Below, in pieces: positions 2,717-3,861 of a stretch of 37,150 nucleotides of DNA; position 1 is the first letter of the stretch; each line of letters starts with the position of its first letter. The stretch is taken from positions 1 through 37,150 of the forward strand of contig DASXPS010000214.1 in assembly GCA_036493475.1 (NCBI GenBank). The letters run 5' to 3'. This DNA comes from Sporichthyaceae bacterium. GTDB taxonomy: Bacteria; Actinomycetota; Actinomycetes; Sporichthyales; Sporichthyaceae. A model generated the notes under the pieces. It was not told the DNA's origin, did no database searches, and saw nothing but the letters and a program-made list of their open reading frames with translations. The translations under genes and the position numbers were made by a program.

Positions 2717-2735
2717 GGCGGGGCGGGCTGCGCTT

Positions 2736-2804
2736 CTCCCCCGAGTGTGTAGTTGCGCAGGCCATACGGGCCGTTAGAGCTGCATAACTGCACACTCGGG
2801 GGAG
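2736..2804. repeat. Long hairpin repeat, copy 1 (upstream of the DUF559-type gene)
   Basis: Two 25-nt arms (2736-2760 and 2780-2804) are inverted complements at 22 of 25 positions, separated by a 19-nt loop. The core reads CCCGAGTGTG then TAGTTGCGCAG on the left and CTGCATAACTG then CACACTCGGG on the right. The same structure, with the same loop length, recurs at 3781-3843 on the other side of the next gene. No poly-T tract follows, so it is not a plain intrinsic terminator. Confidence 0.85.
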
Positions 2805-2864
2805 TTGTGCACAGGCGAGGCGATTGCCTGCGCAAGGATCGCGGCGAACGGCAGGGTGTGCCGC

Positions 2865-3746
2865 ATGGTTGAGCACCCCAGACCCGGCGGCGCGTTCCCG
2901 AGCACCGACCGCGTGCGCCTCGGCATTACTCGAGGCGTATTGCAGGGACCGCGGTACCGGACGGTGCACCGGGGAGTCCACGTCGGCCGGGACGAACAGC
3001 TGGAACTCGAGGATCGCTGCCGCGCGCTCGGCCTCATCCTCGGACCCGACGCCGTCTTCAGTCATCACACCGCCGCCGCACTGCACGGTGCACCCGTTCC
3101 CGACGAGCCGTTGCTGCACATCAGCACCACGGCGACCGTCGAACCCCGCATCGACGGGGTCGTCGCTCACCGGCTGCGGGATGTGGGTCCGACTCACACA
3201 CTCAGCGGCCTGCGCCTCACCTCACCGGCCCGCACCTTCGTGGATCTCGCGGCGTTCCTGGACCTCACGAATCTCGTGTGCACCGGCGACGTGCTCGCCG
3301 TCCGAGAGACGGCCGGCGTGGCATCACTCCGTCGGCAGATCTTGCTGGGTGGTGGCCGGCGCGGTATTCGCCTGGCTCGTCGGGCGATCGAGTTGATCAA
3401 CCCACGATCGAAGTCGTACATGGAATCGAAGCTGCGCTTGATGCTTGTGCTCGCCGGGTTGCCGGAGCCGGACGTGAACAAGGACGTCTACGACGCGCGC
3501 GGCAAGAAGGTCGCCTGCCCGGATCTGTCGTGGCGACCGGTACTGCTCGGGCTGCAGTACGAGGGCAACCATCACCGCATCGACGCGCGCCAGTGGCATC
3601 GCGACATCGGCCGGGACGAAGACATGGTGGAACTGGGTTGGACGATCTTGCGCATCACCGCGGACGACGTCAACGTCACCCCGGCGGCCACCATCGTGCG
3701 CATTCGCCGCGTGTATGACCGACTGTCCCGCAAGCGCGCAGCATGA
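2865..3746 (+). CDS. AbiEi-like/DUF559 protein (VSR-type endonuclease fold)
   Basis: 293 residues if read from ATG 2865; upstream in-frame starts exist (TTG 2805, GTG 2856) but the first touches the hairpin. The N-terminal part (LGITRGVLQGPRYRTVHRGVHV) resembles the winged-helix start of AbiEi-type antitoxins. The C-terminal 110 residues match the VSR/DUF559 nuclease fold: SKSYMESKLR, GLPEPDVNKDVYD, CPDLSW (D220), then LQYEGNHHRIDARQWHRD and ELGWTILRIT. Many relatives have E-Y-D-G where this has Q-Y-E-G, so one acidic catalytic residue may be shifted or missing. No toxin gene is adjacent. The gene is flanked on both sides by matching hairpins, as expected of a small mobile or domesticated cassette. 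The fold is well supported; substrate and activity are unknown. Confidence 0.75.
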   Translation: MVEHPRPGGAFPSTDRVRLGITRGVLQGPRYRTVHRGVHVGRDEQLELEDRCRALGLILGPDAVFSHHTAAALHGAPVPDEPLLHISTTATVEPRIDGVVAHRLRDVGPTHTLSGLRLTSPARTFVDLAAFLDLTNLVCTGDVLAVRETAGVASLRRQILLGGGRRGIRLARRAIELINPRSKSYMESKLRLMLVLAGLPEPDVNKDVYDARGKKVACPDLSWRPVLLGLQYEGNHHRIDARQWHRDIGRDEDMVELGWTILRITADDVNVTPAATIVRIRRVYDRLSRKRAA

Positions 3747-3780
3747 TCGCGCCGCAGCGCCGCACCAGTCCTGCATAACT

Positions 3781-3843
3781 CTCCCGAGTGTGTAGTTGTG
3801 CAGGCTTAGCGGCCTGTTTGGGCTGCACAACTACACACTCGGG
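3781..3843. repeat. Long hairpin repeat, copy 2 (downstream of the DUF559-type gene)
   Basis: The arms at 3783-3803 and 3823-3843 are perfect 21-nt inverted complements around a 19-nt loop. The arm sequence (CCCGAGTGTGTAG, TTGTGCAG) matches copy 1 nearly base for base, and 12 of 19 loop positions also agree. An extra half-arm fragment, CTGCATAACT, lies directly before it at 3771-3780 and is identical to part of the right arm of copy 1. It sits between convergent gene ends and could serve as a bidirectional transcription stop. Confidence 0.9.
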
Positions 3844-3861
3844 TGACTACCGCACCCGCAC

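Follow-up and report, generated by a model that had tools for sequence, protein, structure and literature searches.

A nuclease-like gene bracketed by dispersed cognate palindromes in actinobacteria: a candidate REPtron-like system with an unrelated enzyme

A 37,150-nucleotide stretch of a Sporichthyaceae genome (contig DASXPS010000214.1 of assembly GCA_036493475.1), which we call the window, contains a gene for a nuclease-fold protein between two copies of one long palindrome. Do gene and palindromes belong to one system and, if so, is it a mobile cassette, a self-regulated unit or an enzyme with its own dispersed repeats? A preliminary description, made from the sequence of the window alone, had placed hairpins at 2736-2804 and 3781-3843, and we found both at these positions, folding far better than shuffled sequence (z = -6.6 and -8.4, with 0 of 200 shuffles equally good). 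The locus comprises the following features, listed with the evidence for each.

2728..2812, no strand: upstream palindromic element, 85 bp (alignment of genomic copies, folding); outer arm 2728-2737, inner arm 2741-2760, 19-nt spacer 2761-2779, inner arm 2780-2799, outer arm 2803-2812.
2865..3746, + strand: gene for a 293-aa AbiEi-like plus EDxHD/VSR-like nuclease protein (ORF, sub-cut-off Pfam MTES_1575 match, AlphaFold2, structure matches).
2865..3404, + strand: AbiEi-antitoxin-like part, residues 1-180, a winged helix and an antitoxin-like domain (structure matches, PADLOC).
3405..3743, + strand: EDxHD/VSR-type nuclease domain, residues 181-293 (structure matches, residue conservation); codons of conserved residues E187 at 3423, D220 at 3522, H237 at 3573 and D247 at 3603.
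3771..3855, no strand: downstream palindromic element, 85 bp (alignment of genomic copies, folding); outer arm 3771-3780, inner arm 3784-3803, spacer 3804-3822, inner arm 3823-3842, outer arm 3846-3855.

Aligning all genomic copies gave the 85-bp element a layout of outer arm (10 bp), 3 bp, inner arm (20 bp), spacer (19 bp), inner arm (20 bp), 3 bp and outer arm (10 bp). The inner arm reads CCGAGTGTGTAGTTGYGCAG, the core palindrome is about 59 bp long and each 33-bp half (CTGCGCAACT-13-AGTTGCGCAG) is an imperfect palindrome in itself. The gene starts 52 bp past the first element and ends 24 bp ahead of the second. Allowing up to three mismatches, the 20-nt arm pattern matched four times in the window compared to none in 100 shuffles. 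The arms of the second copy pair perfectly over 20-21 nt, in line with the 21 originally described, and those of the first pair with mismatches; the loops, reported to share 12 of 19 bases, share 11 of 19 by direct count. An extra half-arm fragment noted at 3771-3780 does exist, but it is the left outer arm of the second 85-bp element. Searching Rfam returned no known RNA, and an identity as integron attC was rejected upon inspection, the RYYYAAC/GTTRRRY core being absent from the arms.

Sequence libraries gave only weak matches for either part of the protein, whereas structure gave clear ones. The nuclease domain matched Pfam MTES_1575 below the cut-off (25.3 bits versus 38.2, 1.6e-5) and the PADLOC AbiEi models matched the AbiEi-like part at 2.4e-8. 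Comparing a confident AlphaFold2 model (pLDDT 91.8) with known structures, we found that residues 1-179 resemble a full-length AbiEi antitoxin (6y8q; Z 12.5 over 172 residues) and this part also resembles Rv2827c (1zel; Z 9.0), while residues 184-289 match the catalytic domain of I-Bth0305I (3r3p; Z 12.9, 2.4 A over 96 residues) and the nuclease domain matches VSR (1cw0; Z 11.4). Of the two parts proposed in the preliminary description, the AbiEi-like N-terminus is matched by structure and the VSR/DUF559 nuclease fold is clear by it. Because E187 and D220 are invariant in 133 homologs, and H237 (120 of 133) and D247 (128 of 133) are mostly kept, the nuclease active site is, judging from sequence, probably functional. 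We infer that the AbiEi-like part is a DNA reader; known AbiEi proteins bend DNA upon binding to paired inverted repeats (PMC7319586).

Further copies of the hairpin, which had been suggested as something to look for, occur in the host genome, where the palindrome is found at 11 sites. It is always a full doublet with a 19-nt spacer and is free of indels over 85 bp; pairwise identity among these copies is 0.77-0.96 in the core and inner arms and 0.43 in the spacer. Changes in the long stem show no compensation (78.5% paired versus 82.1% in shuffles), so what is maintained there is not a long hairpin, and pairing within each half is weakly favored. One dispersed element (contig C52, L024:5963-6047) lies just upstream of a gene with a C5 DNA methyltransferase-like start.

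Outside the host, the doublet was found in none of 59 related genomes, including one of the same genus, apart from one weak single-arm match, and the exact double-arm pattern had no match in 84,980 genomes (among which the host genome may be left out), as the palindrome sequence is lineage-specific. No relative was found among the viral contigs searched. A covariance model nonetheless recovered diverged palindromes in three other family genomes with close protein homologs; it matched in all four genomes with a close homolog compared to 5 of 56 others (p = 0.0003). In genome G002, related palindromes also occur closely spaced or in tandem, some with duplicated flanks (C1:2793576-2794053, 3759238-3759743 and 1208081-1208399; L093, L094 and L088).

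The type of palindrome follows the protein. A different palindrome, CGAAAGCGCAGAACSGTACG, stands on either side of the closest host paralog (46% identical), and each of the 10 close homologs examined across four family genomes has at least one flanking palindrome, of a type that goes with the protein clade. More distant host paralogs (C182 and C82; L034 and L036) have a strong one-sided hairpin of yet another sequence. A 30% identical homolog in the same-genus genome G001 (L128) has its own hairpin upstream, and its contig ends inside an apparent downstream copy.

To place these cases in a wider context, we took a census of palindromes scoring at least 14 at 80 named actinobacterial loci. Density was 1.70 per kb upstream and 1.92 per kb downstream of the homologs, compared to 0.07 per kb inside the gene and 0.04 per kb elsewhere. 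A hairpin was called upstream at 35 of 72 loci and downstream at 33 of 80, so that about half of the 80 loci are without a called hairpin on a given side. For 30 non-redundant loci with hairpins on both sides, the upstream and downstream copies of a locus had a median similarity of 28.5 compared to 6.0 between loci, and the best match of the downstream copy was its own upstream copy at 24 of the 30. Homologs across actinobacteria are thus repeatedly flanked by matched pairs; the preliminary description would have given up its proposal had the hairpin been confined to this locus and missing beside homologs, or had every relative carried the gene here with unrelated flanks, and neither is the case. 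It is highly improbable that these are ordinary transcription terminators or repeats standing beside the gene incidentally. Many dispersed copies do lie right behind stop codons, as terminators would, but the roughly 40-fold higher density beside the genes, the matched pairs, the presence of an upstream copy, the cognate-genome specificity and the sequence-specific conservation of the arms all argue otherwise. Unmatched hairpins around most homologs, which we looked for under this explanation, were not the pattern at loci with hairpins on both sides.

Palindrome and protein diverge together. Palindrome types vary from lineage to lineage (Jiangella, GTTGATCATGGAGAAG; Actinomadura, GTTGACTTGCGGCGTGTTGCCCTTA; Promicromonospora, CGTTGAGTGCTGGG; Arthrobacter, GCGAACTGGCAGCTAATG; Mycobacterium, GCCGAACGTGAACTCAGGGCGG), and palindrome similarity tracks protein identity (Mantel permutation, 0 of 500), a relationship lost below about 55-60% identity. 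Length holds at 59-61 bp in three distant genera. Jiangella has two protein clades and two palindrome types. The two cassettes of one Jiangella genome (G067) amount to a natural domain swap: their proteins are ~99% identical in the C-terminal part but differ over the first ~60 residues, and their palindromes differ in the inner arm, a single case that points to the winged helix as the reader.

Copy number is likewise tied to the cognate gene. Arthrobacter genomes with the cognate cassette hold about 15 copies each, with 29-31 arm matches in all three such genomes compared to 0-1 in 10 genomes that carry other versions of the cassette (Fisher p = 0.0035). In Jiangella, type A copies range from 0 to 42 per genome and are absent from two genomes with only the clade B protein, although co-occurrence alone is not significant (p = 0.13). 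The genome with 42 palindromes (G061; for example, L402-L409) is one in which the cognate gene was not found, including near palindrome pairs, and there the palindromes have apparently outlived the enzyme.

We also examined where the dispersed copies lie. Based on heuristic gene calls, and counting orthologous sites that are not independent, divergent gaps hold 0 of 37 Arthrobacter, 1 of 10 Jiangella and 0 of 8 host copies versus a background of 34 of 137, while Arthrobacter copies favor convergent gaps (17 of 37 versus 29 of 137). This preference is REP-like and unlike that of operators. It bears on a quite unlikely alternative, in which the palindromes are operators of an AbiEi-type repressor, governing its own gene or a regulon, and the nuclease domain is secondary. 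AbiEi and Rv2827c do repress their own promoters through inverted repeats (PMC7319586), a palindrome precedes the start by ~60 bp here and typically by 40-130 bp at homologs, and the sites are two-fold symmetric with a fixed geometry. However, avoidance of promoter-side gaps argues against a purely operator role, a second, downstream copy would be needless, and invariance of E187 and D220 is not what a secondary nuclease domain would lead one to expect.

Most dispersed Arthrobacter copies occupy sites common to several species, so no ongoing spread is visible. At 12 orthologous sites, identity is 91% in the arms, 79% in the spacer and 55% in the 40 bp alongside, indicating that the copies are either old and constrained or constantly re-copied. 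Two arm positions covary in Arthrobacter; Jiangella subfamilies switch both arms together, and copies within G061 do not covary. The geometry is fixed and the half-sites are symmetric, which suits a pair of protomers on duplex DNA at least as well as a hairpin. At three Arthrobacter loci (L342, L343 and L372), two neighboring siderophore-permease-like genes contain palindromes in-frame within their N-terminal coding region, where these encode GHYLPVRA-like peptides. The palindrome pairs of L342 and L343 were considered as a cassette and rejected, as they bracket no nuclease gene.

Is the cassette itself mobile? At the window locus, the order dsrE - nuclease - sseC - sseA is common to four family genomes, so this cassette is old, not newly inserted, and the earlier idea of a mobile cassette is not borne out as a recent insertion here. 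An empty site was sought in same-genus G001, whose contig (L325) ends inside sseC; this end and that of L128 suggest that assemblies may break at palindromes. Elsewhere, cassettes have relocated (in G067, Virgisporangium and Actinomadura): the two in G067 encode 94% identical proteins, the two in Virgisporangium aliadipatigenens are 82% identical, and both pairs have unrelated flanks. At one Arthrobacter site (L345:1124-3722; G072 C18), two near-identical 59-bp palindromes enclose a 2.5-kb unit with genes for a flavin amine oxidase and a RidA-family protein; two relatives (L349 and L365) have one palindrome there.

No precise empty site was found for a lone palindrome. A joined-flank search in Jiangella revealed presence and absence at one gene junction, with spacers too diverged for an exact junction, and one Arthrobacter palindrome is absent from G073 together with its neighboring spacer, a pattern that either an insertion or a deletion would explain. 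A 13.8-kb segment of G072, at a place where G073 has a palindrome, was rejected as a palindrome-bordered insert because its borders have no palindromes. Cassettes at fixed loci diverge as a unit, being roughly 44-80% identical in nucleotide sequence inside and mostly 85-100% outside, with sharp boundaries; an example is 58.6% protein identity beside a ~94% identical left flank. Such loci occur between close species (L162/L191, L169/L172 and L190/L207) and in Mycobacterium (L183/L212 and L203/L213), and reflect either replacement or very fast evolution.

These observations bear on two further explanations. The hairpin-gene-hairpin could be a ~1.1-kb transposon-like or homing unit with the palindromes as its ends and the dispersed copies as solo ends or miniature derivatives. 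The relocated cassettes with unrelated flanks, the palindrome-bordered 2.5-kb unit and the sharp identity boundaries would fit, but we consider this unlikely given the conserved synteny of the window cassette, the orthologous and constrained sites of most dispersed palindromes, the near absence of homologs from plasmids (2 records) and phages (1 record), and flanks in which no target-site duplication was recognized upon inspection. Alternatively, the protein could be a defense or anti-invader nuclease that cuts foreign or damaged DNA, with palindromes marking self DNA or titrating the enzyme. An AbiEi-like part joined to a VSR-like nuclease, and fast unit-wise divergence at fixed loci as in conflict genes, would suit such a role. 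It is nevertheless very unlikely, as the neighbors at the window locus are DsrE-like, DUF1416 and rhodanese genes rather than defense genes, there is no AbiEii toxin partner and the dispersed palindromes depend on the cognate gene version.

The closest known arrangement is the REPtron, in which a single chromosomal enzyme gene is flanked by its palindromes and cognate palindromes are dispersed intergenically and numerous where the cognate enzyme occurs, as inverted doublets whose ends are better conserved than the spacer, with enzyme-repeat co-evolution and a housekeeping-like distribution (PMC3116915, PMC8266576). Here too, a single enzyme gene stands beside its own, co-evolving palindrome type, doublet ends are conserved more than the spacer, the distribution is housekeeping-like and cognate palindromes are intergenic and correlated with enzyme presence, with G061 as the one exception. 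The enzyme, however, is AbiEi plus EDxHD/VSR instead of an HUH Y1 transposase of the IS200/IS605 type (no HUH/Y1 transposase Pfam match in 14 members), no GTAG-like tetranucleotide tag lies beside the aligned elements, and copies number in the tens rather than hundreds. The likeness to REP/RAYT drawn in the preliminary description consequently stands for the layout (dispersed copies, matched brackets and co-divergence) but not for membership: the layout is REPtron-like and the enzyme unrelated.

Other systems match in part. I-Bth0305I, an EDxHD homing endonuclease, shares the nuclease fold and conserved E/D/H/D residues and dimerizes on ~60 bp of DNA (PMC3943268), which agrees with the palindrome length of 59-61 bp. 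In contrast, the gene here is not in an intron or phage, has an AbiEi-like DNA reader and is bracketed by genome-dispersed palindromes; relocated cassettes exist, no allele was identified that the enzyme cuts, and the system is not demonstrably a homing endonuclease. The AbiEi-type fold recalls the AbiE type IV toxin-antitoxin systems, of which this is not a member because no toxin gene (AbiEii, DUF1814) is adjacent; the AbiEi-like part is also fused to a nuclease, and the palindromes are dispersed genome-wide. VSR mismatch endonucleases and DUF559/MTES_1575 proteins share the nuclease fold and give weak family matches, but the open-access literature searched holds no description of VSR, DUF559 or AbiEi proteins tied to dispersed palindromes.

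Our preferred explanation, to which we assign a probability of roughly 60%, is a two-part REPtron-like system, consisting of a chromosomal site-specific nuclease gene and dispersed cognate palindromes of ~59-61 bp, including the two on either side of the gene. Each arm would be read by the AbiEi-type winged helix of a single protomer, and two protomers would sit head to head on one palindrome, which could account for a spacer of fixed length and variable sequence. Precedents for such a placement are the paired inverted repeats bound by AbiEi and the I-Bth0305I dimer on its ~60 bp. The EDxHD domain would then nick or cut in or near the spacer, and repair of the break would copy and homogenize palindromes where they already exist, now and then leave additional sequence between a pair of copies and, over long times, spread palindromes to gene 3' ends. 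The upstream copy would probably also let the protein limit its own expression.

More tentatively, and with somewhat less than even odds, the locus may represent a class of repeat systems that reside in genomes without any dependence on HUH transposases. In such systems, an AbiEi-EDxHD nuclease would co-evolve with its ~60-bp palindromes and, by cutting, maintain and spread them, and inserted genes would dock at the palindromes. Among domesticated enzymes that live alongside dispersed palindromes of their own, the known example is REP/RAYT, for which the way the repeats spread is still unsolved. Finding the same layout around a second enzyme, unrelated and common in actinobacteria, would mean that such arrangements have more than one origin, and would offer dozens of natural enzyme-palindrome pairs for probing the recognition code, the cut and how copies are made. 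A target is also suggested for the many proteins whose only annotation is DUF559 or AbiEi-like.
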